Source of the DNA: Pseudomonadota bacterium
GTDB taxonomy: Bacteria; Pseudomonadota; Alphaproteobacteria; JAGOMX01
Direction of reading: 5' to 3'
Length of the DNA: 35,581 nt
NCBI GenBank assembly: GCA_039714795.1
Contig: JBDLIP010000007.1
Span: 1-35,581, forward strand
Shown: positions 11,774-35,313 of the stretch, in pieces
Layout of the letters: every line of letters begins with the position of its first letter
How positions within the stretch are numbered: position 1 is the first letter of the stretch
Position numbers and translations under genes: made by a program
Notes under the pieces: model-generated
Database searches by the model: none
What the model was told of the DNA's origin: nothing
What the model saw: the letters and a program-made list of their open reading frames with translations, nothing else

Positions 11774-12327
11774 TGACCCACTGCATGCTTTAAAATCTCG
11801 TCTTGGAAGCCAAACTGGCTCGGATCCGTCATGCGCATAGGGAACAGTATTCCCTCAAGGTGGTCGTATTCGTGCTGCATGGCGCGGGCGTGAAACCCAT
11901 GTGCTGTTCGTTCAATTTGCTTTCCTTCAGGAGTAGTGCCGGAATAGTGCACGCTTTGATGACGAGAGACCTTGGCCATTAAGCCCGGAACTGACAAACA
12001 GCTTTCCCAGGTTTCAATTGTCTCATCTCCAATAAGCGTCAATTTGGGGTTGATTAGAATAGTGAGAGGTACTCCATCGGGGTCGTGCTCTGGGGTCAAA
12101 TGATAGCGGGGGTTATTGGTTTTGCGTGGGATCTTAAATAACAGAATCCGTAGGGGAATATGCACCTGTGGGGCAGCCAGGCCAATATTATTGCCCAGAT
12201 TTTCCATGGTGGCTAACATATCATCCACAACACCTTTGATGTGCAGGCTCGTAGGATCGTCAACTTCTTTAGCACGTTGGGTGAGGATGGGATGTCCCAT
12301 TCGCGCAACTTTTAGTATTTTGCCCAT
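11770..12327 (-). CDS. def: Peptide deformylase, canonical copy
   Basis: Peptide deformylase removes the formyl group from nascent proteins. The 185-residue protein has all three motifs: NIGLAAPQ at 47-54, WESCLSVPG with metal ligand C110, and QHEYDHLEG with H152, E153 and H156. Position 109 is Ser rather than the usual Gly of EGCLS. The ATG is preceded by AGGAG at 9 bp. It is the first gene of the minus-strand run that continues into the envelope-glycan genes and is divergent from a second deformylase. This is the more canonical copy and so probably the housekeeping enzyme. Confidence 0.93.
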   Translation of the reverse strand: MGKILKVARMGHPILTQRAKEVDDPTSLHIKGVVDDMLATMENLGNNIGLAAPQVHIPLRILLFKIPRKTNNPRYHLTPEHDPDGVPLTILINPKLTLIGDETIETWESCLSVPGLMAKVSRHQSVHYSGTTPEGKQIERTAHGFHARAMQHEYDHLEGILFPMRMTDPSQFGFQDEILKHAVGQ

Positions 12328-12430
12328 AAATGTTAACTCCTCAGAGAAATTACTTGTCGTATAATAAAGGTGAATCTCTTGTTTTATTCAAGTAAAAATT
12401 GCAGATTCAATAATTTTTGTTATATTTTTT

Positions 12431-12459
12431 TTGAAAGTGAGCAAGCAGTTTGCTATAGT
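12431..12459 (+). promoter_or_regulatory. Sigma-70-like promoter for the second deformylase gene
   Basis: A -35 box TTGAAA (12431-12436) and a -10 box TATAGT (12454-12459) are separated by exactly 17 bp, about 50 bp before the start codon at 12510. The surrounding spacer is AT-rich. This is one of the clearest vegetative promoters in the window, judged by eye. Confidence 0.6.
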
Positions 12460-12509
12460 CATAATTTGTAAAATGCACGGGATTAGCAACCTTCATCGGA
12501 GTTTTGGCC

Positions 12510-13184
12510 ATGTCTTTATCACCTTCATCTGCTCGGGCTGTTCAGCCTCAGTTGCAAAATTCAGCAAAAATTAAAGCTGCCGACCTTGAACAGCTTGCCA
12601 AAAAGGGGCAGGTTTTGAAAATTGCTAGAATGGGGCACCCTATTTTGGCGCAGAAAGCCGTTAATGTAGCGCCAAGATCCGAAGAAGCAAAACAAATTAT
12701 GGCGGATATCGCAGCAACTGTCTTGGATTTTGGAGCTTTGCAAGGGGTTGCAGTACCTCAATTACATATGAGCAAGCGGGTGGTTTACTATCAGGTTCGG
12801 GAAGCTAAAGTAGATTCTGCAACTTCTGGTGAATTGCCGGGTCGATTCTTGATCAATGCAAAATATGAAAACGTGGGTGATGAAACTTATGAAGATTGGG
12901 AAGCGTGTCTTTCTCTTCCAGATCTGGTTGGCTTGGTTCCACGCCACAAAAAGATACAGCTCAAGGCCATTTGTAGCGATGGGGTGAATTTTGAAGAAGT
13001 GGATGAAATTCTCGAAGGCCATCACGCCCGTGTCTTAGCCCATGAGATTGATCATTTGGATGGAATTTTGTACCCGCAACGTATGCAGGATTTTTCCAAG
13101 TTTGGATATCAGGATGAGATGTTGCGGTACTTTGTGCAACAGCGTGAGAAGAAAGCGGCAGATAAGGCCAGAGCTACTTTATGA
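12510..13184 (+). CDS. Divergent peptide deformylase paralogue with altered motif I
   Basis: The 224-residue protein starts at the ATG at 12510, after CGGAG; an in-frame TTG at 12504 is less likely. It has a 34-residue N-terminal extension, then the deformylase fold: KIARMGHPIL, WEACLSLPDLVG with metal ligand C133, and LAHEIDHLDGILYPQRM with H178, E179 and H182. Motif I reads LQGVAVPQ in place of GIGLAAPQ, so the conserved first Gly and second Ala are replaced, by Leu and Val. Metal binding and the catalytic Glu are kept, so it may be active with a changed substrate pocket. It is head-to-head with the canonical def gene. The C-terminus is rich in Lys and Ala. Confidence 0.88.
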   Translation: MSLSPSSARAVQPQLQNSAKIKAADLEQLAKKGQVLKIARMGHPILAQKAVNVAPRSEEAKQIMADIAATVLDFGALQGVAVPQLHMSKRVVYYQVREAKVDSATSGELPGRFLINAKYENVGDETYEDWEACLSLPDLVGLVPRHKKIQLKAICSDGVNFEEVDEILEGHHARVLAHEIDHLDGILYPQRMQDFSKFGYQDEMLRYFVQQREKKAADKARATL

Positions 13185-13283: not shown

Positions 13284-16109
13284 ATGCAGTCTACGGTAGT
13301 GTTAGCGCAACAAACACCTCAAACCTTGGAAACCTCCCAAGATACTCCCTTCAGTTTGGCCCTTTCTCCAGCTGGGCATATCTACATCCATAAGGACAGC
13401 GAAACTCAGGAATTTATGCCCCCAGAGCTTGCTGGCAAAGTGCAAGATCTGCTTGAATCGGGTTCTGATATTGGGATTTCAGCGCTTGGATTGTTGAGGT
13501 TTGCCATTACAAATTATAGCGCATCATTGCCATCCAGTTTGGCCTTTTGGCAGCGCTTTGGGCAGTTATTTGTCCACGAAGCCCGCCAGGGGGCCGCACT
13601 CAATGATGGGGTGTTGGTGGATGACGTACAAATTCATGTTCCCGATAACGAATTGCAAGTCTTGCATGAGCAAGCCCCCTTCATGCGTGGGAGTGAATAT
13701 CTCACCGTTGTTTTGCTCACGGATATTTGGCAAGAACTAACCGGCGCCTTAAAGCAAGAGCTTGCTCCGTTCCAGGGCAAGTTGCAGGATTATCTAGCAG
13801 CGCATAATCCCGCCTGGAGCAAGGTGGGACGTGTTTGTTTTCACTTGGCCGAAAATAAATCGAATCCAGCCAAGCCCTTTGCATTCTTAGCGACTTATAC
13901 CGTGCAGTTGTCGGCTGAATCGTCGTTGCAGCATCTGCCCCTGGGGCGCGCTTTAAAAGATTATGCCGGCGAGCAAAAGCGATCGCAATTGTTGTCACTT
14001 TTGTTGCCGGTACAAAAAGCAGCAGAGCAGAGCGATTTCATCAAGAAGTTGGTGAACACCAAGGCCATTTTTCAACCCATTGCTTGGGGTTCTAAACAAG
14101 CACACGCTTTTTTAAAGGCCATCCCGCAGATTGAAGCAGCTGGTGTGATGGTGCGAGTTCCCAATTGGTGGCGTCCAAAGACACCGCCCAGGCCCAAGGT
14201 CGAGATTGAAATTGGCAATGCATCAAGCAGTATGATCGGTTTGGGGGCTTTGCTTGATTTTAGTATGTCGTATTCGTTGCCCAACGGAGATAGTTTAAGT
14301 TATCAGGAAATGCAGGACCTGCTGCGCTCAAGCGAATCGCTGGTGCAAATCCGCGGGCAGTGGGTCGAGGTGGATGCAGAGAAATTGTCAGACGTTCTTT
14401 CGCACTGGAAGCAAGTTGAGGGCCAGGTGCGTCATGAGGGACTCTCGTTTGCTCAAGGTCTGCGAATGCTGGCGTCAGCGCCGGGACAGGCAGAAACGGA
14501 CACACCCACAGAAGACGTTATCGAATGGTCCAGTGTTGTCGAAGGCAAATGGTTGCATGATGCTTTAGACCGTTTACGTAACCCTGAGCATGGTCAGGAC
14601 CAACAGGTGCAAGAGATTTTGCAAACGCACCTTAATGCCACACTGCGTGAGTATCAATCACTGGGAGTACAGTGGTTATGGTGGTTGTATAACCTGCAAT
14701 TAGGTGGTTGTCTGGCTGATGATATGGGCCTGGGGAAAACCATCCAAGTGCTTTCCCTTTTGCTGCTAATTAAGCATCAAAAGATCCAGAATAAAAAGCC
14801 ACATTTGCTGGTGCTACCGGCTTCGCTTATGGGCAACTGGCAAGCAGAGATTAACCGCTTTGCACCTTCATTGAACGTGTGGGTGGCCCACAGCTCGCAA
14901 ACCCGCCAAGAACAGCTGAAACGTTCAGATGCGCCGGATTTATCTCGTGTGGATTTGGTGATCACTACTTATGGTAATGTGCACAGACTTGCGTGGATGA
15001 AGCAGGTGTCCTGGGATTTGGTGGTTCTGGACGAAGCGCAAAGCATCAAGAACCCAACGACCAAGCAAACCCAAGCGGTGAAGGCTTTATCGAGCCAGGT
15101 GCGGTTTATTCTGACTGGTACACCTATTGAAAACCGTCTGCTTGATTTATGGTCGTTGTTTGATTTTGTGGCACCTGGTTTGTTGGGGTCTAGCAAAATT
15201 TTTTCCAATTACGGTAAGAAAATGAGGAAACAGCACGAAGATGGCAGTGGTGAGGGACGTTTTTACTCAGCCATTCGGCACTTGATCACGCCTTATATTT
15301 TGCGGCGGCTCAAAAGTGATAAAAGCATTATCTCAGATCTTCCAGATAAGACTGAGATGGATACGTTTTGTTTTTTGAGCAAACAGCAAGCAGGGCTTTA
15401 TCAAAAATCTGTGCAAGAGTTAGAAGAAAAACTAAAGGAAAATGAATTTAACGATGATATCAAGCGCCGTGGTCTTGTGCTGGCGTACCTAACGCGATTT
15501 AAGCAAATCTGCAATCACCCCAGTCAATGGTTAGGTCATGGTGAGTATGCACCGCAGGCTAGCGGTAAGTTTTTGCGTCTAAAAGAGCTATGCACTAGCA
15601 TTGCTGCCAAGCAGGAAAAGGTGTTGGTATTTACTCAGTACAAGGAAATTATCCCTGCTATTCATGGGGTACTGGAAGAAGTTTTTGGTCGGTCAGGGTT
15701 GACGCTGCATGGGCAAACTCCCGTCAAAGAGCGTCCCAGATTGGTCGATTTATTTCAAAGCGAGCAGGGTCCTCCTTTTTTCGTCTTGTCAATTAAAGCA
15801 GGTGGATCAGGACTCAACTTGACCCGGGCTTCACACGTGATTCATTTTGATCGCTGGTGGAACCCTGCTGTTGAAAATCAAGCCACCGACCGAGCCTACC
15901 GCATCGGGCAAAAGAAAAATGTGTTAGTGCATAAGTTCATTTGCCAAGGCACCATTGAGGAAAAGATTGATCAGTTGATTAACTCGAAAAAGGAATTGGC
16001 AGAGGATATCTTGGCTAAAGGCGGTGGTGCGGCGTTGACGGAGATGAACAATGAAGAGTTGCTTAGTGCTGTATCGCTTGATATACATCGAGCAGTGGGT
16101 GACTCCTGA
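13284..16109 (+). CDS. SNF2-family helicase with SNF2-associated domain, YwqA-like
   Basis: The 941-residue protein is a bacterial SNF2 ATPase, a double-stranded DNA translocase. A middle region (about 310-375) reads SSMIGLGALLDFSMSY and later GQWVEVDAEKL, the DUF3670-type SNF2-associated domain. The motor follows: motif I DDMGLGKT from 479, the DEAQ box from 583, LTGTPIEN in motif III, the GGSGLNLTRASHVIHFDRWW block and the arginine finger in RAYRIGQ. A SWIM-domain gene lies 62 bp downstream, the same pairing as ywqA-ywqB of Bacillus subtilis. The start is uncertain because no ribosome site is seen before the ATG. Role: inferred DNA or nucleoprotein remodelling in repair or transcription. 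Confidence 0.92.
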   Translation: MQSTVVLAQQTPQTLETSQDTPFSLALSPAGHIYIHKDSETQEFMPPELAGKVQDLLESGSDIGISALGLLRFAITNYSASLPSSLAFWQRFGQLFVHEARQGAALNDGVLVDDVQIHVPDNELQVLHEQAPFMRGSEYLTVVLLTDIWQELTGALKQELAPFQGKLQDYLAAHNPAWSKVGRVCFHLAENKSNPAKPFAFLATYTVQLSAESSLQHLPLGRALKDYAGEQKRSQLLSLLLPVQKAAEQSDFIKKLVNTKAIFQPIAWGSKQAHAFLKAIPQIEAAGVMVRVPNWWRPKTPPRPKVEIEIGNASSSMIGLGALLDFSMSYSLPNGDSLSYQEMQDLLRSSESLVQIRGQWVEVDAEKLSDVLSHWKQVEGQVRHEGLSFAQGLRMLASAPGQAETDTPTEDVIEWSSVVEGKWLHDALDRLRNPEHGQDQQVQEILQTHLNATLREYQSLGVQWLWWLYNLQLGGCLADDMGLGKTIQVLSLLLLIKHQKIQNKKPHLLVLPASLMGNWQAEINRFAPSLNVWVAHSSQTRQEQLKRSDAPDLSRVDLVITTYGNVHRLAWMKQVSWDLVVLDEAQSIKNPTTKQTQAVKALSSQVRFILTGTPIENRLLDLWSLFDFVAPGLLGSSKIFSNYGKKMRKQHEDGSGEGRFYSAIRHLITPYILRRLKSDKSIISDLPDKTEMDTFCFLSKQQAGLYQKSVQELEEKLKENEFNDDIKRRGLVLAYLTRFKQICNHPSQWLGHGEYAPQASGKFLRLKELCTSIAAKQEKVLVFTQYKEIIPAIHGVLEEVFGRSGLTLHGQTPVKERPRLVDLFQSEQGPPFFVLSIKAGGSGLNLTRASHVIHFDRWWNPAVENQATDRAYRIGQKKNVLVHKFICQGTIEEKIDQLINSKKELAEDILAKGGGAALTEMNNEELLSAVSLDIHRAVGDS

Positions 16110-16137
16110 GCAACAGGAAAATCGAAAAATGAAGATT

Positions 16138-16161
16138 AAGAGGAAGAGGAAGAGGAAGAGG
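16138..16161 (+). repeat. AAGAGG hexanucleotide repeat, four units, at the ribosome site
   Basis: Four perfect AAGAGG units run from 16138 to 16161 and end 10 bp before the SWIM gene start at 16172. Each unit contains a purine-rich, Shine-Dalgarno-like AGAGGA. Unit gain or loss by slippage would change the number and spacing of potential ribosome sites. This functional idea is inference. Confidence 0.8.
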
Positions 16162-16171
16162 AAGATAAAAA

Positions 16172-17002
16172 ATGGGACGTAGACGACGATATCACAGCTA
16201 TTTTCCTCCCTACGTATCTGTAGCTGAGAGAAAAGAAGAAGCCGTGCAGATGGCGGCAAAGCTGAAGAAAAAAGGCGAAGATATTAATCCTGTTGTGATC
16301 GAAGGACGCAGCATTGCGACAACCTTTTGGGGTAAAGCTTGGTGCAGAAACCTTGAGCAATATAGTGATTTCGAGAATCGTTTGCCGCGGGGGCGATCGT
16401 ACGTGCGCCATGGGTCAGTGATTGATCTAAAAATCGACACAGGTAAGGTTTCAGGGCTCGTCAATGGTTCTTCGCTTTACAAGGTAAAGATCACGATTAA
16501 GGGCGTTGTTGATGATAAATGGAAGCGATTGGTTGATCAGTGTTCCGGGCAAATTGATTCGCTCATTGAGCTGTTGCAAGGTAAGTTCTCAAAAAGTGTA
16601 ATGGAGCTAATCACACAGCCGGAATTGGGGCTATTTCCAAACCCAAAAGAAATCAAACTCAGTTGCTCGTGTCCAGATTATGCTGACATGTGCAAGCATG
16701 TAGCTGCTGTCCTGTATGGGGTAGGGGCCCGGCTTGATTCCCGTCCTGAAGATCTTTTCTTGCTGCGCAAAGTCAACCATATGGATCTGTTTGCCACCGC
16801 TGAAGCCTTGGAGGGCGTACAAGATGGAGCACCTGAGGTGAGCGATGATCTTTCTGAATTGTTTGGCATTGATTTGGCAGAATCAGCAGTGCCAAAAGCA
16901 AAAGCAAAAGCAAAAGAAAAAGTTGAGAAAAAGAAAATCACACGAAGGGCCAAGAAACCGACTCTGGCTGAAAAAAGGAAGGCTAAAAAGCGAACTGCGT
17001 GA
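16172..17002 (+). CDS. SWIM zinc-finger protein, partner of the SNF2 helicase
   Basis: The 276-residue protein carries a SWIM zinc finger of the form CxCx(n)CxH, CSCPDYADMCKH at about 166-177, after a conserved N-terminal region with FWGKAWCRNLEQYSDFENRLPRGRSYVRHG. SWIM domains bind DNA or proteins, and stand-alone copies are often encoded next to SNF2 helicases, as here. The C-terminal 40 residues are very rich in Lys and Ala, and partly encoded by four CAAAAG hexamers at 16893-16916. The ribosome site lies in the AAGAGG repeat. The stop codon is followed in the same frame by a RelE-like sequence described separately. Confidence 0.88.
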   Translation: MGRRRRYHSYFPPYVSVAERKEEAVQMAAKLKKKGEDINPVVIEGRSIATTFWGKAWCRNLEQYSDFENRLPRGRSYVRHGSVIDLKIDTGKVSGLVNGSSLYKVKITIKGVVDDKWKRLVDQCSGQIDSLIELLQGKFSKSVMELITQPELGLFPNPKEIKLSCSCPDYADMCKHVAAVLYGVGARLDSRPEDLFLLRKVNHMDLFATAEALEGVQDGAPEVSDDLSELFGIDLAESAVPKAKAKAKEKVEKKKITRRAKKPTLAEKRKAKKRTA

Positions 17003-22701: not shown

Positions 22702-23046
22702 ATGCGAATACACAAATCCCTGCATAACTTTGACCCTGAAATCGCCCAAGCTCTGGGAAACGAACTCAACCGCCAGCAAAATCAGTTGGAAATGATTGCT
22801 AGTGAGAATTTTGTCTCGCCTAATGTTATGGCTGCCACCGGCAGCGTGATGACCAACAAATACGCTGAAGGGTACCCGGGCCGGCGCTATTATGGAGGCT
22901 GTGAGTTTGTGGACGTGGCTGAGCGATTGGCTATCGAGCGCGCATGCCAATTGTTTGGCTGCAAGTTTGCCAATGCGCAGCCGCATTCAGGGGGCCAGGT
23001 CAATGAGGCGGCGGTAGTTGATTTGCAGCAAATTCATGCGTCATGA
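22702..23046 (+). pseudogene. glyA: Serine hydroxymethyltransferase, 5' fragment
   Basis: The first 100 or so residues are unmistakable GlyA: an N-terminal helix, [41 protein letters not shown] and [12 protein letters not shown]. GlyA is normally about 420 residues and makes glycine and one-carbon units from serine. After QVN (about 23005) the similarity stops; a dozen unrelated residues lead to a stop. The PLP-binding lysine region and about three quarters of the enzyme are missing. The start codon and upstream signals are intact, so this is a 3' truncation by rearrangement rather than point decay. A complete glyA would be expected elsewhere. Confidence 0.9.
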
Positions 23047-23213: not shown

Positions 23214-25496
23214 ATGGGAAAACCTCTAAAAAAAATGATTGTTCCATCTCCTGGAGCTGAGCAGGAAGCGGCTTCTTTGCTGGCTGTAGGGAACTATAAG
23301 AAAGCACTTAATTGCTATAAAGCGCTTTTAAAACAAGAACCTTGTGATAGGTATCGTGATGCCGTGCGGGATTGTTATATTGGCAGAGCCAAACACTTAA
23401 GTAACAAAGGAATGTATCGCGAGGCAGTGGTGTTATGGGAAAATCACTCTCAGTATTGTACTGAGTGCAGTCACGTTTACCTTTATATCAATTTGTTGCT
23501 TGTGTCAGGATTTGAAAGTAAAGCTGCAGATATTTTTCTAAACAATAGGGATTCTATGGTTGAATCACAGATATTGGAAATAGAAGAAATTTTTGCAGCA
23601 CTTCTGTTGACTGGATCTGATGAGCTCGTCAGCATTTTTCCGGAAGACTCCATCCTTAGAATGCATCTCACATTTGCGCAGCAGGCTTTGGTTGCTATGA
23701 TTGAGCGGAACTTTGATCAATTGGAAAACGCACTGGCAGCCATTTCTTTTCGCTCTCCCTATAAGCAACTGAAGTTGATATTAAAAGGTTACCTGCTTCA
23801 GGTGTCTGATAAGAATTCTGATGCTGAGCCATTAGAACATGTTCCAACGACTTCCCCCTTTTATCAATTTGCAAAAGTTGTAAGAACTGCACTGTCGTCC
23901 CCTATTGATATGGCAAAGTCACTGGCGAATTTAGATCGAGTGGGATTTGAGTTATTAAGTGGGTTGCAAGGATGGGAGCCCGGCAGACAAAAGTATTTTG
24001 ATAAATTACGCGATTTAGCCGGCCGATCAGAGCCAAGGGTGTCGTCCAACCTCATTGCAGAAGGTCTGCCCTACATGGATAAATATTCTGCAAAAAGACT
24101 ATTTTATAATTTGCTTCCGTTTTATACGCCCGCTCGCAAAACATTTGAAAAGCTTTTTGAGCCATTGTCTGTTGAGGAAGAAGCACATATCAAGGCACTT
24201 GCATCAATTCACAAAGACGATAAATTTCCTCCCGAGGTTTGGCAGGAATATGAAAATGCGCTGAGCACTCAGCCACAAACGCCAATTCTTGAACTGAAAC
24301 GAGCGCTAACTTTGCGTCATGTAGTTGATTTGATTGATGCAGAACATGGAAAAGATTGCAGGTGCCCGTGGTTTGAAAAAAATTTGCAACTGCTGGAGAC
24401 TAGTCTTGCTCTCGATCCGGAGGATAAAGCGACTTATTTTGAATTAGTCCGTCGCTGTGATCTTCCAGGGGTTGAAAAGAGCGGCAAAGAGTTTATCGAT
24501 AAGGCATTGTTAGTTTTTCCTGAAGATCGTGATGTGTTGGTCATGGCAATCAAATCAGCGCGCCAACATGGGCTATTCAGCAAGGCTCTACAGCTTACAG
24601 AAAAATTGCTAGCCTTGGACCCCATTAATCGATTTGCTCTGCAATACATGACAGATCTTAATTTGCTAAAGGCAAAAAATTTGATTCTAAAAGAGAAGTG
24701 GGGTCAAGCTGAAACTCTCTTGCAAGACCTGGCAACCAGAGTTCCCAACAACCTCAAATGGCTCGTTCAACTGCATCAGGCTTTGTATAAATATCTTCAA
24801 GGAGATTTATCGCAGTTGCAACTTTTGGTGTCTCAAGGTGACGAAACGGATGTCATCCACCGGGTTAAGTTTTTGCTTGAAGCCAATAAGTTACAAATTC
24901 CCTTAGCGAAACTTGAACGGAAGGTTTGGTCCATTGCTACAAGTAAGCTCAGTATAAGAGACAGTGTTCAGTTGTTGCAATTGATTAAGCTCATGGAGCA
25001 ATATAGTACAGATGTAATATGGCAAGAAATCATTGATAGAATAAAAAGTCCTCTTAAAAAAGCGTGTTATCATCGTTTGACATCTTCGGATTTTGCAACT
25101 GTTTGTGAATTTTTTGCTAAAATTGGTCAGTTTAATTTGGTAAAAAACTTTATTAATGGTCAACCTCACCTTAAGGGTGAACCCATTTTTCTGTATTACG
25201 CGGTTTATAATAGGATTAAGGGGGATGCAAAAAATATTAAAAGATCCGATTTTGAATTATTGGAACAAGCTATGAGCATGGCTGAAGTAATCAACGATAG
25301 GCGCACTGGCATCTTAATTGATAAACTATTGGAAGAGTCGCCTAACGTCAGAATTCACAGAGAGGATAGCATGCCTCCTATGCCTTCAGACTTTCGGGAA
25401 ATGAAAGAATTTTTGTCAGGAATGATGGAAGAGGCTGGTTTAGATAGAAAGAAACAACAAGAGTTACGGAAATTGCTAGAAAAGGAGTTTTCTTAG
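23214..25496 (+). CDS. TPR-like helical-repeat protein, first gene of the chaperone-helicase operon
   Basis: The 760-residue protein has no signal peptide or membrane segment and is almost wholly helical. TPR-like units are readable at the N-terminus (ASLLAVGNYKKALNCYKALL, then GRAKHLSNKGMYREAVVLW) and in the middle (LQLLETSLALDPEDKATYFE, DKALLVFPEDRDVLVMAI, LTEKLLALDPINRFALQYM, AETLLQDLATRVPNNLKWL). The C-terminus is charged (LDRKKQQELRKLLEKEF). Such solenoids often bind Hsp70 tails or client proteins, so a scaffold or substrate-recruiting role for the downstream Hsp70 is a reasonable inference. The ribosome site before the ATG is weak; the ATG at 23235 is an alternative. Its last codons (AAAAGGAG) provide the ribosome site of the next gene. 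Confidence 0.72.
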   Translation: MGKPLKKMIVPSPGAEQEAASLLAVGNYKKALNCYKALLKQEPCDRYRDAVRDCYIGRAKHLSNKGMYREAVVLWENHSQYCTECSHVYLYINLLLVSGFESKAADIFLNNRDSMVESQILEIEEIFAALLLTGSDELVSIFPEDSILRMHLTFAQQALVAMIERNFDQLENALAAISFRSPYKQLKLILKGYLLQVSDKNSDAEPLEHVPTTSPFYQFAKVVRTALSSPIDMAKSLANLDRVGFELLSGLQGWEPGRQKYFDKLRDLAGRSEPRVSSNLIAEGLPYMDKYSAKRLFYNLLPFYTPARKTFEKLFEPLSVEEEAHIKALASIHKDDKFPPEVWQEYENALSTQPQTPILELKRALTLRHVVDLIDAEHGKDCRCPWFEKNLQLLETSLALDPEDKATYFELVRRCDLPGVEKSGKEFIDKALLVFPEDRDVLVMAIKSARQHGLFSKALQLTEKLLALDPINRFALQYMTDLNLLKAKNLILKEKWGQAETLLQDLATRVPNNLKWLVQLHQALYKYLQGDLSQLQLLVSQGDETDVIHRVKFLLEANKLQIPLAKLERKVWSIATSKLSIRDSVQLLQLIKLMEQYSTDVIWQEIIDRIKSPLKKACYHRLTSSDFATVCEFFAKIGQFNLVKNFINGQPHLKGEPIFLYYAVYNRIKGDAKNIKRSDFELLEQAMSMAEVINDRRTGILIDKLLEESPNVRIHREDSMPPMPSDFREMKEFLSGMMEEAGLDRKKQQELRKLLEKEFS

Positions 25497-25497
25497 A

Positions 25498-25830
25498 GTG
25501 GATCCTTATATTCTTTTGGACTTGGACGCTGCTGCTGCCGATGATGCAACGGTTAAATCTGCTTATGTGCAAGCTGCGCGAGCGTATCCGCCAGACAAAA
25601 ATCCGGAGATGTTTAAATCAATACGTTCTGCCTTTGAGTCAATTGCAACTGAACGCCAGCGGCTAAAGCAGCAGATGTTTCAATTAACGCCAACGGATCC
25701 GGTTACAATTATCTATTCTTGTTTGCGGGATGGGGAATCAGGAAGGTTATCTAGTACGCCAAATACCCGTGATATTTTTCAAAAAGGTGTTCGTTCTATT
25801 GTAAGGCATAACTTGGAAAACAAATGTTAG
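25498..25830 (+). CDS. J-domain-like cochaperone with PPD in place of HPD
   Basis: The 110-residue protein begins MDPYILLDLDAAAADDATVK and continues SAYVQAARAYPPDKNPEMFK then SIRSAFESI, which aligns with J-domain helices I-III. The essential HPD triad is PPD at 31-33: His is replaced by Pro, while Asp and the following KNP are kept. It starts at GTG 25498, with AAGGAG ten bases upstream in the previous gene, and its end overlaps the GrpE-like gene by 7 bp. Similar short J-like proteins with a PPE/PPD loop occur beside atypical Hsp70s, so this is probably a dedicated variant rather than a decayed gene. Whether it stimulates ATP hydrolysis is unknown. Confidence 0.75.
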   Translation: MDPYILLDLDAAAADDATVKSAYVQAARAYPPDKNPEMFKSIRSAFESIATERQRLKQQMFQLTPTDPVTIIYSCLRDGESGRLSSTPNTRDIFQKGVRSIVRHNLENKC

Positions 25831-26636
25831 GCATAGATACGAAGCGACAAAATACGGTTGATAGTTTTAGCTATTTTGTTGAAGACTCACCGAAATCAGA
25901 ATCAGAACCAGAACCTGAAGATCCAGTTGAAAAGTCATCTGATTTGCCAGAAGTCATACCAATGCCGGGGCCTAAAATTACGGTTGATCCGGAACCAGAA
26001 CCGGAACCGGAAGTTAGTGATGATAAAATTGCCATGTCAGTATTGTATGGGGAGCTAACAGACCTCAACACAGAAATCCAGGAAGAGCTGACAGAACTCA
26101 AAACCGAAATCAAGGGGGAGTCCCGGCAATTTAAAGGTGCCTTGAGAAGTTTCAAAGAAATTTTTGGTACTTTGCAAAAAAGCCATGATGTCTTAACAAA
26201 AGAATTAAATCACAGACGCCAGGAACAAAAAGTTGAAACGGAAATACAAAAACAGGCCATACTTAAGCCGTTTTTGTTAGATATTATCGAGTTGCGTGAT
26301 CGCCTGGAAGCAGGTGTATTACATAGCAAGAATTATCGTTCGGGTTGGTTGGCGCGAATTTTTCAGCGTGAATCTGCATTTGTAGCGAGCCTTAGCCAAG
26401 GGCAAGACATGATGTTACGTCGTGTTGATCAACTTTTGTCATCCCATGATGTGCAGGCTATCAATGCAATTGGAAAGTCTTTTGACCCTAAATTTATGCG
26501 AGCAGTCGCAGTGGAGTATTCACCTGGACTGCCAAATAATGAGGTTATTTTAGAGTTGCGTAAAGGATTCATCTGGAAAGATGAGATTTTGCGTGTAGCA
26601 GAAGTCAAAGTGAATAAAGAAGAGGAATTAAATTAA
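25824..26636 (+). CDS. GrpE-like nucleotide exchange factor with acidic N-terminus
   Basis: The 270-residue protein has three parts. Residues 1-70 are acidic and Pro-rich with repeated EPEPEP runs. Residues 70-140 form a charged coiled coil (GELTDLNTEIQEELTELKTE). The C-terminal half resembles GrpE: LKPFLLDIIELRDRLEAGVL, then NAIGKSFDPKFMRAVAVEYS and NNEVILELRKGFIWKDEILR ending VAEVKV, equivalent to GrpE FDP-HEAV and the QKGY-LRPA-V strand. It is longer than E. coli GrpE (197). It overlaps the J-like gene (ATGTTAG) and the Hsp70 gene (TAATG), so stoichiometric coupled translation is likely. Role: ADP release from the adjacent Hsp70. Confidence 0.78.
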   Translation: MLGIDTKRQNTVDSFSYFVEDSPKSESEPEPEDPVEKSSDLPEVIPMPGPKITVDPEPEPEPEVSDDKIAMSVLYGELTDLNTEIQEELTELKTEIKGESRQFKGALRSFKEIFGTLQKSHDVLTKELNHRRQEQKVETEIQKQAILKPFLLDIIELRDRLEAGVLHSKNYRSGWLARIFQRESAFVASLSQGQDMMLRRVDQLLSSHDVQAINAIGKSFDPKFMRAVAVEYSPGLPNNEVILELRKGFIWKDEILRVAEVKVNKEEELN

Positions 26637-28405
26637 TGAGTGAGGTAATTATTGGTATCGATTTGGGTACAACAAATTCAGAAGTTGCAGTTGTACGAGA
26701 TGGAAAGGTCACGATTATTGATGACAACGGAGATAAGATTTTACCCTCAGTTGTCGGTCTATCAGACAGCGGGACCCTTCTTGTAGGCGAGATTGCCAAA
26801 AATCAATATGTGCTTTGTCCAGAAAAAACGATTCTATCAATCAAACGTAACATGGGAAGCCAGGAAAAGGTTAATCTAGGGGACTCTGCTTACGCACCTC
26901 AGGAAGTGTCAGCTATGATCTTAAAGCAATTAAAGTCTATGGCTGAAGATTATCTGCAATGTTCGGTGTCGAAGGCAGTTATTACGGTTCCTGCCTATTT
27001 TTCTGATGCACAACGCCAAGCAACCAGAGAAGCAGGTGAGCTGGCAGGCCTTGAAGTCGTTCGAATCATCAACGAACCAACGGCGGCAGCCCTTGCCTAT
27101 GGAGCAACAGACCAAGAGAAAAAGAATATTTTGGTTTATGATTTGGGTGGCGGTACATTTGATGTTTCGGTTGTTTGTTTGGAATCGCAAGTTGTGGAGG
27201 TGCTGGCAACTACCGGTAACAATAACCTTGGTGGAGATGACTTTGATACCAAGATTGTCAAGTTTATCGAAGACCATTTACAGGAAAAAGGAATCGATAT
27301 CAGTCAATCTCTACTGGCAAAAGCCCGCATCCAGCGCGCAGCAGAAATTGCAAAAATTAAATTGTCAGATCATCCCTTTGCAATGATTGAAGAAGAGTAC
27401 TTGTTGGATCACGAAGGGAAACCTTATCATTTGTCATTAGAGATTTCACGAAAAGAGTATCAAGAAATGATTATGGCGCATGTTGATGAAACGCTAGATG
27501 CCGTCCATCAAGCGCTTGATGAAGCAAATTTAATGGCATCTCAAATTGACGAAGTTTTACTAGTAGGTGGTAGTACCCGTACCCCTATTATTCCAGAAAA
27601 GTTATCTGAAATATTTGAAAATAGACCACATGCAGAAATTGATCCAGAGTTTTGCGTTGCAATAGGGGCTGCGATTCAAGCAGGAGTTATTGCTGGCGAA
27701 GAATGTGACGCTGTATTGGTAGATATTACACCTTATACTTTTGGTACTTGTTATTTAGGTGTTTTAGATGGATATCCCTATCCTAACGTATACCAACCAC
27801 TCATTCAAAAGAATACTCCTATTCCTGTAACAAAGAGTGACGTGTTTTATACAAACCACGACAATCAGGAAATTGTTGATGTTAGTGTTTATCAAGGGGA
27901 AAATGCTGATGCGTTGCAAAATATCGAAATTGGGAAATTTTTGATAGAAGGCCTGAGCAAAGTTCCTGCAGGAAACCCCATTATCGTTGATTTTAATCTA
28001 GACTCAGATGGCATTTTGCATGTTACTGCTAAAGAAAAACGTAGTGATGTAGAAAAATCATTAACCATAGATAATGCAATTTCGCAGTTTACAGATCAAG
28101 AATTTGATAAGGCAAAACAGCGTATCGACCAGTTATTTGCAGATGATTCAGATGACATATCTTACGATGAAGATGAAACTGATCAAGGTCGTTTGGTTTT
28201 AATAGATAAGCGGACAAATACTCTTGAATTGATAGCAATAGCTGAAGGAATTTTAAATAAGGTATCGAATGAAGACAGAGAAGATTTACAGAGTATTATT
28301 GAAGAAACGAGAGGTGCTTTGGATATAGATGACGAACAGAATTTAGAAAATAAAACCAAGAAACTATCTGATATCGTATCTTATTTAGAGGTTAGTGCAG
28401 CGTGA
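26636..28405 (+). CDS. Divergent Hsp70 (DnaK-like) chaperone
   Basis: The 589-residue protein has a complete Hsp70 nucleotide-binding domain: IGIDLGTTNS at 6-15, IINEPTAAALAYG at 144-156, YDLGGGTFDVS at 168-178 and LLVGGSTRTP at 308-317. The interdomain linker and first strand read AVLVDITPYTFGTCYLG (from 359), unlike the DVLLLDVTPLSLGIE of housekeeping DnaK. A substrate-binding beta domain follows (NTPIPVTKSDVFYT, GENADALQNIEIGKF, VDFNLDSDGILHVTAKEK), then a short acidic helical lid ending without the usual DnaK tail. It is shorter than DnaK (about 638). Flanked by its own J-like and GrpE-like genes, it is best read as a specialised Hsp70 with dedicated cochaperones. Confidence 0.9.
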   Translation: MSEVIIGIDLGTTNSEVAVVRDGKVTIIDDNGDKILPSVVGLSDSGTLLVGEIAKNQYVLCPEKTILSIKRNMGSQEKVNLGDSAYAPQEVSAMILKQLKSMAEDYLQCSVSKAVITVPAYFSDAQRQATREAGELAGLEVVRIINEPTAAALAYGATDQEKKNILVYDLGGGTFDVSVVCLESQVVEVLATTGNNNLGGDDFDTKIVKFIEDHLQEKGIDISQSLLAKARIQRAAEIAKIKLSDHPFAMIEEEYLLDHEGKPYHLSLEISRKEYQEMIMAHVDETLDAVHQALDEANLMASQIDEVLLVGGSTRTPIIPEKLSEIFENRPHAEIDPEFCVAIGAAIQAGVIAGEECDAVLVDITPYTFGTCYLGVLDGYPYPNVYQPLIQKNTPIPVTKSDVFYTNHDNQEIVDVSVYQGENADALQNIEIGKFLIEGLSKVPAGNPIIVDFNLDSDGILHVTAKEKRSDVEKSLTIDNAISQFTDQEFDKAKQRIDQLFADDSDDISYDEDETDQGRLVLIDKRTNTLELIAIAEGILNKVSNEDREDLQSIIEETRGALDIDDEQNLENKTKKLSDIVSYLEVSAA

Positions 28406-31400
28406 ATTTGTTATTGACATGAATCCACATGATCTCTTAAGGGAATATCATAGCCTTCCTACCCTAGAACAAGCCGTCGTACGTTTGGTGTCGCTTGTTT
28501 ATGCGGGTACTGGTGCGAAAAATTTACTTAAATGCTTGCAGAGATCACCTTATCTTTCTCAAGCAGAACGCAATATGGAAATCGGTCAATTGCGTAAGGT
28601 TCTTGCTCTCTTAAAGAGAAAAAGAATGATTGGCCCCAAGCAAGAATGTCCTCCAGATTTGGCTCATGCTATAAGCACTGATGCTTGTGATAGTGGTTAT
28701 ATTAAACAATATATTGCTGCCATTGAATCTGTTTGTAAAGAAACGGGAAGGCGTGTCTTTTACGGATACTCTGTTAATGAGAACATGATTTATCTCAGTG
28801 AATTACGCAGAGCTATCTATGGGGGAGATGAACTCGAAATCATTGAGCAACTCGAGACGATTGTCAATGATATTGATCACCATGGGCTTGACCGACTGTT
28901 CATGTATATCTATGCAGATACACCATTAAATCTAAAGTGGTTGTTGGGGCTTCCATTCGTTGTACAACAACGGATTTTTAGCACCAAGCTAAGATCATTT
29001 TGTCTGACCGGTTGGGACTTTGATCAATTACAACCACTTTTGTCTCATTATGAGTCAAAGCGTGAAGATAAAAATTATCGCTCTTTTGCTACCACTTTTT
29101 TACTGTATGACATTTTATCGGGTCGTACAGATTGCATCGAACAAACTTTGGCAATGAGTGAGTTGCCTGCTGAGATGGAATCTGCTGTTGCAGGAACAGC
29201 AGCATTTTTTTTGCAGAATCAGAAAATGAGTCTTACTCGCTATGCTGAAGGGCTAAAATCTTTGCGCAAACAAACTCATAGCCGTGAGATTTACTTTCGG
29301 ACAATTGACGGTGTATTTTATTTGCTTGCTTTGTTGCAGACAGAAGACAAGAAACACTGGGATAAATTGCAAGCACATTTAAAGGTTGTTTTAGAATACA
29401 ATACGCCCTACTCAACTGCTTACCGAATCATCCAAGACATATTGTGGGTTTTGCGGAATCAAGAAGATTTGATGCAAAAAAACCGTTATTCTCGCGATAT
29501 AGGACGATTAGATTTAGCTGAATTAGACCCCTTATCTGCCGCAATCAGAGTTCTTTATTGTTACTGGTTTGACAAGGACAAACTTGATCTTGAGGTCTGT
29601 CGTGGGCAGTTTATTACTTATAAAAATAGCTTACCGTTAGTGGCTAAAATATTTGTTGATGTTCTTGTGCAAAGTGGTCAAAGTTCTCAAAATTCCCAAG
29701 AGTACGAAATATTCATATCCCAAAATAACTTAGAGAACATAATAGATTTTAGCTCTATCGTTAAAGTGAGTGAAAAATGGGAACGACAATTACAGCAATT
29801 GAATCATTTTTTTGAGTGTATTGGAGGATCCGGTGATTCATCAAAGAAGAAACGTTTGGTATGGCGGCTCAATCCAGAAGATATTCAAAGTTTAACAGCT
29901 ATTGCACAAAGTTTGAAATTGAATGGCACTTGGAGTAAGGGCAAAAAAATATCTCGCAAGCGGCTGTTTGAAAATGGCAGTTCGGCTGCGTTAGATTATT
30001 TGACTCTAGAAGATCACAAACTCATTCGTACCTTGAAGAAAAATCCTTATCGCTACTACGGTTCGGAGGACTACTATTGGGATCAGAATAAAACGTTACA
30101 GGCCCTGATTGGTCATCCTAGGATTTTCTGTGAAACTGCACCCGATGTATTTTCTGAGTTTGTAGAAACTTCCCCAGAACTTATTATCGAGGAAGATGAC
30201 AAAGATTACTTTAAAATCAGTATGTCGCACCTATCGTCAACAGCTGAGGTCCTCATAGAACAAGAAACACCATCACGTTTCAGGGTTGTTGATTTTTCCG
30301 AGCAATTTTTGCCCCTGACGGATATTATCGGAAATCAGGGCTTAAAAGTTTCAGCATCTGCTAAAGAGCATGTTGTCAATATTATCCGCAAGGCGGCTCC
30401 AATTTTACCAATCCAGTCAGAGTTGGAAAGTGATGATCTTCCCACTGTAGAATCAGATCCTACCCCTTGTTTGCAAATGCTACCCATGGGGGAGGGGTTG
30501 CGGGCCAATTTGTTTGTGCGCCCCTTTACTGACAGTGGATGCTATCTACGGCCAGGTCAGGGTAAGCCGCTGGTTTTGTCAGAAATCAAAGGACAACATA
30601 CCAGGGCACGTAGGGATTTAAAGCAGGAAGAGCAGCTGGTAGAGCAATTGCTTGAGAGCAGTTCTTGTCTGCGGCTGCGCAATGATGATAGCAATGAGTG
30701 GATATTTGAAAGGCCTGACGATTGCCTAGAGTTGTTAAGTGAATTGCAAAATTACCAAGGTTCATTGAAAATTGAATGGCCTGAGGGTCAGACCTTTGCG
30801 GTGACCAAGCAAATTTCGTTTAATGATTTCAGCCTCAATATTCGCCAGCAAAATGATTGGTTTGAAGTTCAAGGTGAGCTACATATTGGCGAAGACAAAG
30901 TGCTGGATATGCGCACATTGCTCGATTTACTCGAGTCGTCGCAAGGAAACTTTATACCGCTTGGAGAGCATCAGTTTCTTTCACTGTCCAAACATTTCAA
31001 AAAGAGATTGCAGGACTTGAAGGCCTTTAGTGAATCGACCAAGTCAGGGGCTAAGGTACACGGGCTTGGCAGCTTGACCTTGCAAGAGTTTGCCAGTGAG
31101 GCAGGCAAGGTTAAAAGTGACAAGCACTGGAAGGAAAAGCTCAAGGCATTGGCAGAGGTAGAAAGCTATCAGCCGCAACTGCCAACAACCTTGCAGGCAG
31201 ATTTAAGGGACTATCAAGTCGAAGGTTTTGAATGGCTAGCGCGTTTATCAAAAGCAGGAATGGGAGCGTGTCTTGCTGATGATATGGGATTGGGTAAGAC
31301 TTTGCAGGCTTTAGCCGTCATGCTGCCCCATGCTTCTCAAGGACCTTGTTTGGTGATAGCACCAACCTCCGTGTGTCACAATTGGGAAGATGAGGTTCGG

Positions 31401-32621
31401 AAATTTTCCCCAACGCTCAACACCCATACTATGCCTTTAAAAGGACGCAAAGAACGGGTTGAGTCCTTAGGGCCCAATGATGTGTTGGTTTGTAGCTACG
31501 GGATTATGCAACAGAGCGCAGAGATTCTACAGGAGAAATTCTGGCAGATGGTGGTTTTGGATGAAGCCCAGGCAATTAAAAACCCAGCTACCAAACGTTC
31601 GCAAGTGGTAGGCAAACTTCAGGGTCAATTTAAATTGGCGCTCACCGGTACGCCCATTGAAAATAATTTGGACGAATTGTGGAGTTTATTTCGTTTTGTA
31701 GCCCCAGGTTTGCTTGGGTCTCGGGAGTCATTCCGGTCTCGCTTTAGTATTCCAATCCAAAAGCATGGGAAAAAGCAAGTGCAGAACGCCTTACGTCTTT
31801 TGGTACAAACCTTTATTTTAAGGCGTACTAAGAACAAGGTTCTAACAGAGCTGCCACCGCGCACAGAACAGACTTTAGTTGTAGAGATGACAGAAGAAGA
31901 ACGTTCTTTCTACGAAGCTCTGCGCCGCAAAGCTGTTGAACGCATTCAGGCTTTGGATGAAGACACCCAGGCGGGACAAAAGCGCTTTCACATCTTAGCT
32001 GAAATGACAAGGCTGCGGCAGGCTTGCTGCCATCCACAATTGATCACGGCTGGTGTTGCGGTAAAAAGCAGCAAGATGAAGATGTTACTGCGTCTGATTG
32101 ACGATTTAAAACAGAATAACCACCAAGCTTTGATATTTAGCCAATATGTCAGCTATTTAAAGTTGGTTCGTAAAGAATTAGATGACCAAGGTATTAGCTA
32201 TCGTTATCTAGATGGCAGCACCCCAGCATCAGCGCGCAAGCAAGAGGTCCACGCTTTTCAATCTGGGGAAAGTGATCTCTTTCTGATCAGTCTAAAGGCA
32301 GGAGGTGCAGGGTTGAATTTGACCGCCGCTGATTATGTCATTCACTTAGATCCGTGGTGGAATCCCGCGGTAGAGGACCAAGCTTCAGACCGTGCGCACC
32401 GTATTGGTCAAACTCGTCCAGTAACTGTCTATCGCTTGATTATGCAAAACTCGATTGAGGAAAAGATCATATCGCTGCACCAAACCAAGCGCGACTTAGC
32501 TGATGGATTGCTAAAAGGCAGCGATGTTTGGCAGCGCCTTAGTGAGGATCAATTGATCGAATTGATTCAGGAGACGCAAACCCCAGAGACACAGTTACTT
32601 CCAGACAAACAGGCAGCTTGA
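28395..32621 (+). CDS. 1408-residue SNF2-family ATPase, last gene of the chaperone operon
   Basis: The C-terminal part (about 930-1390) is a full SNF2 motor: LADDMGLGKTLQ with D962-K968, the DEAQ box from 1056, LTGTPIENNL, ILRRTKNKVLTELPPR, the GGAGLNLTAADYVIHLDPWW block and the arginine finger in RAHRIGQ. Residues about 690-930 look like a bacterial SNF2-associated region (GEGLRANLFVRPF). The first 690 residues are helical and charged, and I cannot assign them. The GTG at 28395 is used because AGAGG precedes it and it overlaps the Hsp70 end by 11 bp; ATG 28419 is an alternative. The coupling implies joint work: the Hsp70 set could assemble, load or regulate this DNA translocase, or the motor could strip proteins for the chaperone. 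Confidence 0.9.
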   Translation: MQREFVIDMNPHDLLREYHSLPTLEQAVVRLVSLVYAGTGAKNLLKCLQRSPYLSQAERNMEIGQLRKVLALLKRKRMIGPKQECPPDLAHAISTDACDSGYIKQYIAAIESVCKETGRRVFYGYSVNENMIYLSELRRAIYGGDELEIIEQLETIVNDIDHHGLDRLFMYIYADTPLNLKWLLGLPFVVQQRIFSTKLRSFCLTGWDFDQLQPLLSHYESKREDKNYRSFATTFLLYDILSGRTDCIEQTLAMSELPAEMESAVAGTAAFFLQNQKMSLTRYAEGLKSLRKQTHSREIYFRTIDGVFYLLALLQTEDKKHWDKLQAHLKVVLEYNTPYSTAYRIIQDILWVLRNQEDLMQKNRYSRDIGRLDLAELDPLSAAIRVLYCYWFDKDKLDLEVCRGQFITYKNSLPLVAKIFVDVLVQSGQSSQNSQEYEIFISQNNLENIIDFSSIVKVSEKWERQLQQLNHFFECIGGSGDSSKKKRLVWRLNPEDIQSLTAIAQSLKLNGTWSKGKKISRKRLFENGSSAALDYLTLEDHKLIRTLKKNPYRYYGSEDYYWDQNKTLQALIGHPRIFCETAPDVFSEFVETSPELIIEEDDKDYFKISMSHLSSTAEVLIEQETPSRFRVVDFSEQFLPLTDIIGNQGLKVSASAKEHVVNIIRKAAPILPIQSELESDDLPTVESDPTPCLQMLPMGEGLRANLFVRPFTDSGCYLRPGQGKPLVLSEIKGQHTRARRDLKQEEQLVEQLLESSSCLRLRNDDSNEWIFERPDDCLELLSELQNYQGSLKIEWPEGQTFAVTKQISFNDFSLNIRQQNDWFEVQGELHIGEDKVLDMRTLLDLLESSQGNFIPLGEHQFLSLSKHFKKRLQDLKAFSESTKSGAKVHGLGSLTLQEFASEAGKVKSDKHWKEKLKALAEVESYQPQLPTTLQADLRDYQVEGFEWLARLSKAGMGACLADDMGLGKTLQALAVMLPHASQGPCLVIAPTSVCHNWEDEVRKFSPTLNTHTMPLKGRKERVESLGPNDVLVCSYGIMQQSAEILQEKFWQMVVLDEAQAIKNPATKRSQVVGKLQGQFKLALTGTPIENNLDELWSLFRFVAPGLLGSRESFRSRFSIPIQKHGKKQVQNALRLLVQTFILRRTKNKVLTELPPRTEQTLVVEMTEEERSFYEALRRKAVERIQALDEDTQAGQKRFHILAEMTRLRQACCHPQLITAGVAVKSSKMKMLLRLIDDLKQNNHQALIFSQYVSYLKLVRKELDDQGISYRYLDGSTPASARKQEVHAFQSGESDLFLISLKAGGAGLNLTAADYVIHLDPWWNPAVEDQASDRAHRIGQTRPVTVYRLIMQNSIEEKIISLHQTKRDLADGLLKGSDVWQRLSEDQLIELIQETQTPETQLLPDKQAA

Positions 32622-32654: not shown

Positions 32655-33878
32655 TCAAAGATAGCCAACAGGAATAGCAGTAACTTCTCGGGAAATAGGT
32701 ACATCTTTTTCCACAAAGCAAATAACTGCGCCATGGCCAACCTTTTTCCCTAGTTTTTGCAGCAAATGAAAGTGCTTGGATGCGGTTCTAGATGGCCTTG
32801 CGGTCTTTTTAAATTCTACTGGATAAAAAGTCCCTCCTGTTTCAATGACGAGATCTACCTCCCGTTGATCGAGATCACGATAGTAGTAAAAATGCGGAGT
32901 TACGCCATTATGAAAATAGCTTTTAAGAATTTCGGTAAAGATATAGGTCTCAAGGATGGCACCAGACATTGCCCCCAGTTCTAGTGACTCAGGATTTGGC
33001 CACTTGGTAAGATAGCTACATAAACCGGTATCAAGAAAGTATAGCTTTGGTGTCTTGACAAGACGTTTGGTTACATTGCGATAATATGGTTGTAACAAAT
33101 AAATAATTCCTGATGCTTCAAGGACCGAGAGCCATGCCTTTGCTGTCTTGTGATCGATATCTACATCACGCGCTAGGTTTGAGTAGTTTAAAAGCTGCCC
33201 TGTTCTTGCGGCAACAACACTAAGGAATTTACTAAAAGCTATTTCATCACTAATGTTTAAGATATCTCTAATATCACGTTGGATGTAGGTTTTGATATAT
33301 GAGTTATAAAAAATATTTGAGGAAATTTTAGGATCTTGGGTTAATTTAGGAAAGGCGCCAAGCCAAATGCGTTCATAAACATCTATCAACGGTTTTGGCT
33401 TTGTCATGTTTTTTTTTGCGCTATTGATCCAATCAAGGGTTGGCAGAAAAGGCTCTGTTTTGTCATGACGCCCATCAATTTCTGCCTGGGAAAGTCCAAG
33501 CAGATCTATGATAGCCACACGGCCTGCAAGGCTTTCGGTTATTCCTTTCATTAAATGGAATTTCTGAGATCCTGTAAGCCAAAAAAGCCCCGACTTTTGT
33601 TCGCGATCGGCAATGATTTTAATGGCACTGAACAACTGTGGGGCGTATTGGACTTCGTCAATCAGTAAAGGTGGTTTGTGTGCTTGTAAAAAGAGAACTG
33701 GATCATTCTGCGCGATTTCTCTTTCCTGTAGGTCATCCAAGGTAACGTAATTACGATTTTGTTCTGCACACATTTTAAGTAGTGTGGTTTTTCCAACCTG
33801 ACGCGGTCCTGTCACAAGCAAAACAGGAAAGGTCGCATCAACTTCTCTGACTGTTTTAGTAAGGCTGCGTTGTAACAT
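32655..33878 (-). CDS. AAA ATPase with C-terminal DUF4143 domain
   Basis: The 407-residue protein has Walker A GPRQVGKTT at 24-32, Walker B LLIDEVQ at 71-77, and the sensor-like WLTGSQKF near 100. A winged-helix-like middle (about 200-260) precedes the DUF4143 region with TPKLYFLDTGLCSYLTKW and YYYRDLDQREVDLVIETGG followed by YPVEFKKTA. The last part has the D...ExK arrangement of a restriction-endonuclease-like fold. These ATPases are common, often multicopy and associated with genome plasticity; their cellular job is unsettled. It converges on the SNF2 gene with a 33-bp gap, so it is not part of the chaperone operon. Two palindromes lie just before its start. Confidence 0.9.
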   Translation of the reverse strand: MLQRSLTKTVREVDATFPVLLVTGPRQVGKTTLLKMCAEQNRNYVTLDDLQEREIAQNDPVLFLQAHKPPLLIDEVQYAPQLFSAIKIIADREQKSGLFWLTGSQKFHLMKGITESLAGRVAIIDLLGLSQAEIDGRHDKTEPFLPTLDWINSAKKNMTKPKPLIDVYERIWLGAFPKLTQDPKISSNIFYNSYIKTYIQRDIRDILNISDEIAFSKFLSVVAARTGQLLNYSNLARDVDIDHKTAKAWLSVLEASGIIYLLQPYYRNVTKRLVKTPKLYFLDTGLCSYLTKWPNPESLELGAMSGAILETYIFTEILKSYFHNGVTPHFYYYRDLDQREVDLVIETGGTFYPVEFKKTARPSRTASKHFHLLQKLGKKVGHGAVICFVEKDVPISREVTAIPVGYL

Positions 33879-34137: not shown

Positions 34138-35313
34138 TCAATCAGATTTTTTATCCGTAGCTTTTGCTTTGGTAGCAGTTGCCTTTTTGGCAGCAGCTTT
34201 TTTCTCTACTGTCTTCTTTTCTGCTGGTTTAGCTTTAGTGGTAGCAGCCTTTTTAGGAGCAGCAGTAGCCTTCTTTGCCGGCGCCTTTTTTGGAGCGTCG
34301 GTTTCTTTTTTTGCAGCAATCACCTTTTTAGCTGGGGCTTTGGGCTTAGTTGTTGTCTTTGTTGCAGCCTTCTTTTCTACTGCTTTTTTGTCTTCAGGCT
34401 TTTTAGCTTCAGGTTTGGCTTTTACCGTTACCTTTTCTTCTTTGGCAGCGGTTTTCTTTGCTACACCCTTTTCTGCTACAGGTTTTTCGTCTTTTTTAAC
34501 CTCAACTTTAGGCTTCTTTGCAGTCGCTTTCTTTGGCTTTTCTGTGGGTTTTTTCTCAACAGGCAGCATTGCGGCTTCAGCTGGTAGCTCAGCTGAGGCA
34601 CCAATGTCAACACCAGCAGCAGTCATTTGTTCCTGCAGGCCATCTAGAATTGCTTGTGAGAACAGATCGCAATACTTGGTAATGGAGCGAATCGCATCAT
34701 CATTTCCGGGGATGGGATAGTCAATGACAGTTGGATCACTATTGCTGTCCACAATACCAACGATTGGTACACCCAGTTTGCAAGCTTCTTTTACGGCTGT
34801 GTCTTCTTTGTTGGTATCAATGACGATTAACAAGTCAGGCGTTCCGCCCATTTCGCGGATTCCACCTAAAGCACGCTCCAGCTTGTTGTATGCACGCTGT
34901 AATTTTAAGCGTTCCTTCTTGGTTATGCCAGTCGTTTCATCAGCCAGTTGTTTTTCATATGAAGTTAAACGCTTGATTGATTGTGAAACGGTATTCCAGT
35001 TGGTCATCATTCCGCCGAGCCAGCGGTGATTTACATAATACTGCCCGCATTGCTGGGCCGCATTAGCAACAACATCTGAAGCCTGAGATTTTGTGCCTAC
35101 AAACAAAACGCGTCCGCCATCTTTAACGACGTCTTGGGTTTTTTGCAAAGCCGTCTGTAGCATAGGGAACGTTTGCGCCAAGTCAATAATATGAATTTTG
35201 TTACGCACTCCAAACAAGTAAGGAGCCATCTTTGGGTTCCAACGACGAGGGTGGTGGCCGTAGTGAATTCCTGCTTCCAGCAGCTCACGCATAGTAAATG
35301 TGGGTAGTGACAT
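34138..35313 (-). CDS. rpsB: 30S ribosomal protein S2 with long Lys/Ala-rich C-terminal tail
   Basis: S2 is a late-assembling small-subunit protein. Residues 1-235 are canonical: [41 protein letters not shown], then [15 protein letters not shown] and [22 protein letters not shown]. From about 253 to 391 the chain becomes a low-complexity run of Lys, Ala, Pro, Thr and Glu (repeats such as [15 protein letters not shown]), resembling histone H1. The family is usually 230-300 residues. An AAAGGA site precedes the ATG and a good promoter lies further upstream. The tsf gene, which normally follows rpsB, is absent; the downstream 260 bp are palindrome-rich spacer. Confidence 0.95.

Follow-up and report, generated by a model that had tools for sequence, protein, structure and literature searches.

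The window, by which is meant the whole analyzed stretch of 35,581 nucleotides, derives from a 1.86-Mb draft genome. Between positions 23214 and 32621 it carries five real open reading frames, all on the plus strand (Table 1). The first four are referred to here as the chaperone cassette. Successive junctions consist of a gap of one base (+1) followed by overlaps of 7, 1 and 11 bases (-7, -1, -11), which agrees with the co-directional arrangement and spacing given in the first-pass annotation of this DNA. The flanks of the window are rplY/pth/ychF/birA and rpsB. The 11-base overlap between the Hsp70 and SNF2 genes hinges on the GTG start at 28395; with the alternative in-frame ATG at 28419 the SNF2 gene would begin 13 bases past the Hsp70 stop. 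An N-terminal "QRE" common to this protein and one homolog mildly favours the GTG. The Hsp70-SNF2 interval was inspected for a terminator-like site and none was present.

Table 1. Features of the five-gene operon and of its SNF2 product (window coordinates)
Feature	Position	Strand	Basis
Cassette gene 1, TPR-type scaffold protein, 760 aa	23214..25496	+	weak Pfam TPR match; homology to proteobacterial cassette gene 1
Cassette gene 2, J-like protein without HPD, 110 aa, GTG start	25498..25830	+	Pfam DnaJ; alignment
PPD at the place of HPD, codons 31-33 of J-like gene	25588..25596	+	alignment
Cassette gene 3, GrpE-type exchange factor, 270 aa, long acidic N-terminus	25824..26636	+	Pfam GrpE
Cassette gene 4, DnaK-like Hsp70, 589 aa	26636..28405	+	Pfam HSP70; residues; tree
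Overlap of Hsp70 stop and SNF2 GTG start	28395..28405	+	sequence
SNF2 ATPase, 1408 aa, GTG start; family widespread and usually solitary	28395..32621	+	Pfam; homologs; tree
SNF2 residues 10-475, predicted alpha-solenoid, TPR-like	28422..29819	+	AlphaFold2, mean pLDDT 79.5
SNF2 residues 487-925, predicted mixed alpha/beta pre-helicase region	29853..31169	+	AlphaFold2 model; invariant columns
SNF2 motor core, residues 940-1338	31212..32408	+	Pfam; closest solved chain is the Snf2/Rad54-family core 1z63

The product of cassette gene 1 gave a weak match to Pfam TPR (3.8e-5) and a profile match of 835 bits, and is 23-26% identical to the first gene product of proteobacterial cassettes, with E values down to 1e-55. 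No link to the TPR protein of cyanobacterial cassettes was found by profile comparison, so that homology of the TPR component across the two phyla is unproven. The J-like protein scored 29.4 bits against Pfam DnaJ (8.8e-7; cutoff 27.8) and was aligned with 24 cassette J proteins and E. coli DnaJ. The histidine of the HPD motif is replaced in the window protein (PPD) and in every other cassette J protein aligned; proteobacterial cassettes have PPD, PPE, SPD or SPE at this site, and cyanobacterial ones a PAH-type sequence. In the same alignment the DnaJ of the window's own genome has an intact HPD. Elsewhere in the window (5713-6168) a membrane protein with a C-terminal J-domain, in which HPD is kept (HPDKGG), is an ordinary J protein. 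The GrpE-type protein matched Pfam GrpE over residues 98-265 (3.3e-26), with 32-42% identity to the GrpE proteins of proteobacterial cassettes. Plasmid searches with the window TPR and GrpE proteins gave no useful relative, and no viral relatives of GrpE, the cyanobacterial TPR protein or the SNF2 N-terminus were found.

The fourth product is an Hsp70 (Pfam HSP70, 5.5e-149) that is 52-57% identical to 15 other cassette Hsp70s. Its catalytic and nucleotide-binding residues are present (equivalents of D8, T11, T12, N13, K70, E171, D194 and T199), and all checked catalytic residues are kept in the cassette Hsp70s, barring two frameshifted Acaryochloris reads. The interdomain linker of the cassette proteins reads VLVD(V/I) where LLLDV is usual; that of the window protein is AVLVDI. 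Since the catalytic residues are intact and the J protein has lost HPD, the ATPase should, judging from these motifs, work and the classical J trigger should not. The protein falls below two DnaK equivalog cutoffs (543.7 vs 822.6 bits and 558.6 vs 648) and below that of HscA (438.8 vs 708.6 bits), and no isc genes were recognized nearby. In a phylogenetic tree, to be read with caution on account of long branches, the cassette Hsp70s form their own clade apart from DnaK and HscA. Housekeeping dnaK, together with dnaJ encoding an intact HPD, was located on another contig of the same genome, in keeping with the earlier statement that the operon is not the housekeeping dnaK locus.

Comparison was made with 26 other cassette loci, from a second class of the same phylum, from cyanobacteria and from cyanobacterial plasmids. 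In a phylum-wide search with the window Hsp70 as sole query and a strict cutoff, 16 other genomes were found (44-57% identity, 488-693 bits); 15 belong to one other class, of which 48 genomes were sampled, and the sixteenth (G605) lies outside it. As a second, independent route, a plasmid search with Hsp70 revealed these four genes in identical order on plasmids of Nostoc and Acaryochloris, and these cassettes led on to others in cyanobacterial chromosomes. The cassette TPR gene was present in 22 of 194 cyanobacteria. The order TPR, J-like, GrpE, Hsp70 was kept in all 26 loci, with Hsp70 missing from two cyanobacterial copies; the TPR gene of one locus (L206) is cut by the end of the stretch and was left unscored by profile. 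The copies concerned, L169 and L171 of Dolichospermum, contain TPR, J-like and GrpE genes followed by no Hsp70. Among the 23 loci having more than 500 bases downstream of Hsp70, a small zinc-ribbon gene (CPxCR..CRRCGxDL) lies directly 3' of Hsp70 in 18. This gene starts at about the place where the Hsp70/SNF2 overlap sits in the window, and the SNF2 gene occupies the fifth slot there instead of the usual, not universal, zinc-ribbon gene. The window locus has the gene order, the J protein without HPD and an Hsp70 within the cassette clade by which an HPD-less Hsp70 cassette is defined. Gene order and domain content, compared over these loci, show the conserved unit to be a chaperone cassette of putative TPR scaffold, HPD-less J-like protein, GrpE, Hsp70 and usually a zinc-ribbon protein. 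This operon, found across distant bacteria, apparently has so far been without description. Cassette TPR genes were observed to be split or broken by stops among several cyanobacteria (G886, G838, G973), and in G886 the SNF2 gene is likewise broken, alongside its broken TPR gene.

The fifth product matched Pfam SNF2-rel_dom (6.8e-70) and Helicase_C. The best-probability fold match of its predicted solenoid was MalT domain III (0.99, E 0.07), followed by TPR subunits of the APC, none of them significant by E-value; for the N-terminal part the top match, also non-significant, was ZorD (8qy7). Based on invariant columns, conservation within the family is, the motor apart, highest in residues 487-925. 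Full-length relatives of about 1400 amino acids, N-terminal half included, are common, and homologs show 38-41% identity. Matches were obtained in 290 genome stretches, of which 80 were kept for analysis. Relatives also occur often on plasmids (cyanobacterial, Legionella, Klebsiella, Serratia), where they adjoin genes for partition, recombinase, ssb/RdgC or transposition, and no match spanning 80% of the query was found in phages. No conserved neighbour was detected beyond clade-specific ones, and the surroundings of a further 20 SNF2 loci, from a related class and its neighbours, were varied. In Nostoc (L103, L079, L111, L120, L137 and L088) a SWIM zinc-finger gene lies directly 5' of SNF2; in L103 some 8 bases separate the two. 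In the tree, a solitary gene of Alphaproteobacteria bacterium 16-39-46 comes closest to the window SNF2. That genome was among those of its class searched with the TPR query, of which the window's own genome gave the only full match.

The first-pass annotation had proposed a private Hsp70 set tied to one DNA motor. The private set stands, its order being fixed in 26 of 26 other loci; the tie to one motor does not, as SNF2 adjoins the cassette in 0 of these 26 and cassette genes occur in the flanks of 0 of the 89 SNF2 loci analyzed. Neighbours of homologs were thus random for the SNF2 half of the operon and not for its chaperone half. The loss of HPD from the J protein and the usual zinc-ribbon gene had gone unmentioned in that annotation. 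The Hsp70-SNF2 junction was seen in a single genome, the alphaproteobacterial one of the window; of three genomes sampled in its taxonomic order, two are without this SNF2. Since the adjacency occurs nowhere else among the loci compared, a machine bound to a single motor does not qualify as a conserved system. The locus is probably a composite of a conserved chaperone operon and a lineage-specific SNF2 addition.

At the level of gene content, a functional tie between cassette and SNF2 is suggested. In the class of 48 genomes this SNF2 was present in 14 of 15 with the cassette vs 18 of 33 without (Fisher p=0.007, with kinship ignored); in cyanobacteria the counts were 10 of 22 vs 51 of 172 (p=0.11, kinship again ignored), leaving 12 of the 22 with the cassette TPR gene but not this SNF2 family. 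On cyanobacterial chromosomes that have both on one contig, the distance between them is about 0.6 Mb or more (e.g. G850, G946, G949). In genome G498 a cassette is followed, 1.8 kb downstream and in the same orientation, by genes for a SWIM protein and a "YYEF" protein (L198:11042-14081); in some cyanobacteria SNF2 is flanked by relatives of these. These neighbours and the co-occurrence give a hint of a cassette-SNF2 link. As a bridge between the two, the SWIM and YYEF genes were set aside, being so placed in one genome and both families being mostly solitary elsewhere, on plasmids. Mere co-transcription of SNF2 with the cassette is considered somewhat the likelier state of affairs, and real functional coupling is put forward tentatively, as somewhat the less likely.

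Among the alternatives, the likeliest is that SNF2 is a passenger: a mobile gene, solitary before, would have inserted after the cassette in place of the zinc-ribbon gene and would simply borrow the cassette promoter. This is quite plausible though short of probable. It accords with relatives that are solitary and plasmid-borne, and with neighbours that vary, as seen in the related class (20 loci) and among the genome loci collected. The cassette, too, seems to have been acquired, as no full match to its TPR protein occurred in any other of the 385 genomes sampled in the window's class. The junction, however, is precise and overlapping rather than a spaced insertion, which suggests selection for co-expression, and the co-occurrence in one class likewise speaks against a passenger. 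Just upstream of the operon (22702-23046) lies a 5' fragment of a serine hydroxymethyltransferase gene (profile positions 1-108), which is possibly a recombination scar at the edge of an acquired segment.

A dedicated five-part machine, in which Hsp70 and SNF2 would jointly remodel protein-DNA complexes as the first-pass annotation envisaged, is unlikely. The tight spacing with its 11-base overlap, the absence of a terminator-like site, the SNF2 excess among cassette genomes of one class and the SWIM and YYEF genes after the L198 cassette would fit such a machine. Against these stand the adjacency seen nowhere else, the 12 of 22 cassette-TPR cyanobacteria missing this SNF2 family, the solitary sister gene, and the SWIM and YYEF relatives that are mostly alone on plasmids. 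It is less likely again that the cassette is an undescribed Hsp70 system, with an exchange factor of its own and a J-like adaptor unable to trigger the ATPase in the usual manner, servicing SNF2-type translocases, mostly in trans and here in one operon with the zinc-ribbon subunit replaced by SNF2.

Identification of the SNF2 protein as DpdE was rejected (52.7 vs 500 bits with NCBIfam; permissive PADLOC DpdE models reached up to 598 bits on the motor domain), and no other dpd genes occur among the annotated window genes; ZorD was likewise rejected (250.1 vs 1500 bits with NCBIfam), with no zorABC seen. Defence against phages or mobile elements with SNF2 as effector, after the manner of Zorya, Dpd or NTP-dependent conflict systems, is very unlikely, for while PADLOC DpdE/ZorD profiles match the motor half, SNF2 relatives are found on plasmids and Hsp70-GrpE-J/TPR themes are known in GAP1-N2 conflict systems (PMC7159879), the nuclease, GTPase or partner genes of those systems were not recognized beside the locus, the curated DpdE and ZorD cutoffs were missed by far, and the flanks are housekeeping genes. 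The defence-island setting raised in the first-pass annotation was not seen in the window, and neither GTPase nor FNIII-type partner genes as in GAP1-N2 were recognized there.

Returning to the composite of chaperone operon and added SNF2, the Hsp70 would go through an ordinary ATP cycle, with GrpE as its dedicated exchange factor, and its clients would reach it via the TPR scaffold and J-like protein. Lacking the HPD trigger, the J-like protein may dock without stimulating the ATPase in the classical way and serve instead as an adaptor or brake, a proposal resting on one motif. Pam16 plays such a role for mitochondrial Hsp70. SNF2 enzymes push proteins along or off double-stranded DNA, and the present one, probably co-translated with Hsp70, would do the same. 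The most economical coupling would be that, in this lineage, the predicted TPR-like solenoid of SNF2 made it a client or partner co-expressed with the chaperone.

No described system of this composition was found in the literature searched, as the earlier reading of the sequence had also held. Dedicated Hsp70 systems are a known kind, and the cassette is set apart from each by its gene content and by the loss of HPD. Like canonical DnaK-DnaJ-GrpE, it has a J-fold protein, an exchange factor of GrpE type and an Hsp70 whose ATPase residues are intact, but its J protein is without HPD, G/F, zinc or C-terminal domains, and its Hsp70 has a clade of its own and fixed TPR and, usually, zinc-ribbon partners. 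The cyanobacterial DnaK1-DnaJ3-GrpE system is a specialized Hsp70 system coupled to the type IV pilus motor (PMC9239167) and has a TPR-containing J protein (PMC12288463); in N. punctiforme it uses the sole GrpE, encoded at a grpE-dnaK1-dnaJ11 locus, and DnaJ3 has a separate gene (PMC9239167). It looked close and was rejected as a match, the locus being different and not TPR, J, GrpE, Hsp70 in order. In AtcJABC of Shewanella a short J protein is likewise encoded in one operon with the partners to which it is dedicated, but AtcJ has a working HPD and uses the general DnaK, and its operon is without Hsp70 or GrpE (PMC6715715). GAP1-N2 conflict systems resemble the cassette in having Hsp70 and GrpE in the same neighbourhood as a partner with J or TPR domains, but are GTPase/FNIII-centred and mostly found in actinobacteria and firmicutes (PMC7159879). 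CoCoNuT Hsp70s were rejected, as their ATPase sites are degenerate and their partners are McrBC. ZorD and DpdE, like the window SNF2, are large proteins with a C-terminal SNF2 motor; the window protein differs in its N-terminal half and has no ZorABC or Dpd genes with it.

A J protein is thought to need HPD for switching Hsp70, and a single H to Q change abolishes the switching (PMC6715715). A conserved operon of Hsp70, GrpE and an HPD-less J protein offers a natural way to test for some other means of driving Hsp70. Should SNF2 motors prove to be its clients, a dedicated chaperone would be linked to DNA translocases in bacteria.

Several other features were observed. A second SNF2 helicase gene, SCO1167-type with DUF3670, is followed by a SWIM zinc-finger gene at 13284-17002, 6 kb upstream of the operon, and a third SNF2 gene lies on contig C122. 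Two peptide deformylase genes adjoin each other divergently at 11770-13184. On the opposite strand, 32655-33878 encodes an AAA_14/DUF4143 ATPase that matches PADLOC candidate PDC-S01 (E 1e-114). Ribosomal protein S2, encoded at 34138-35313, has a long lysine/alanine-rich tail resembling histone H1.
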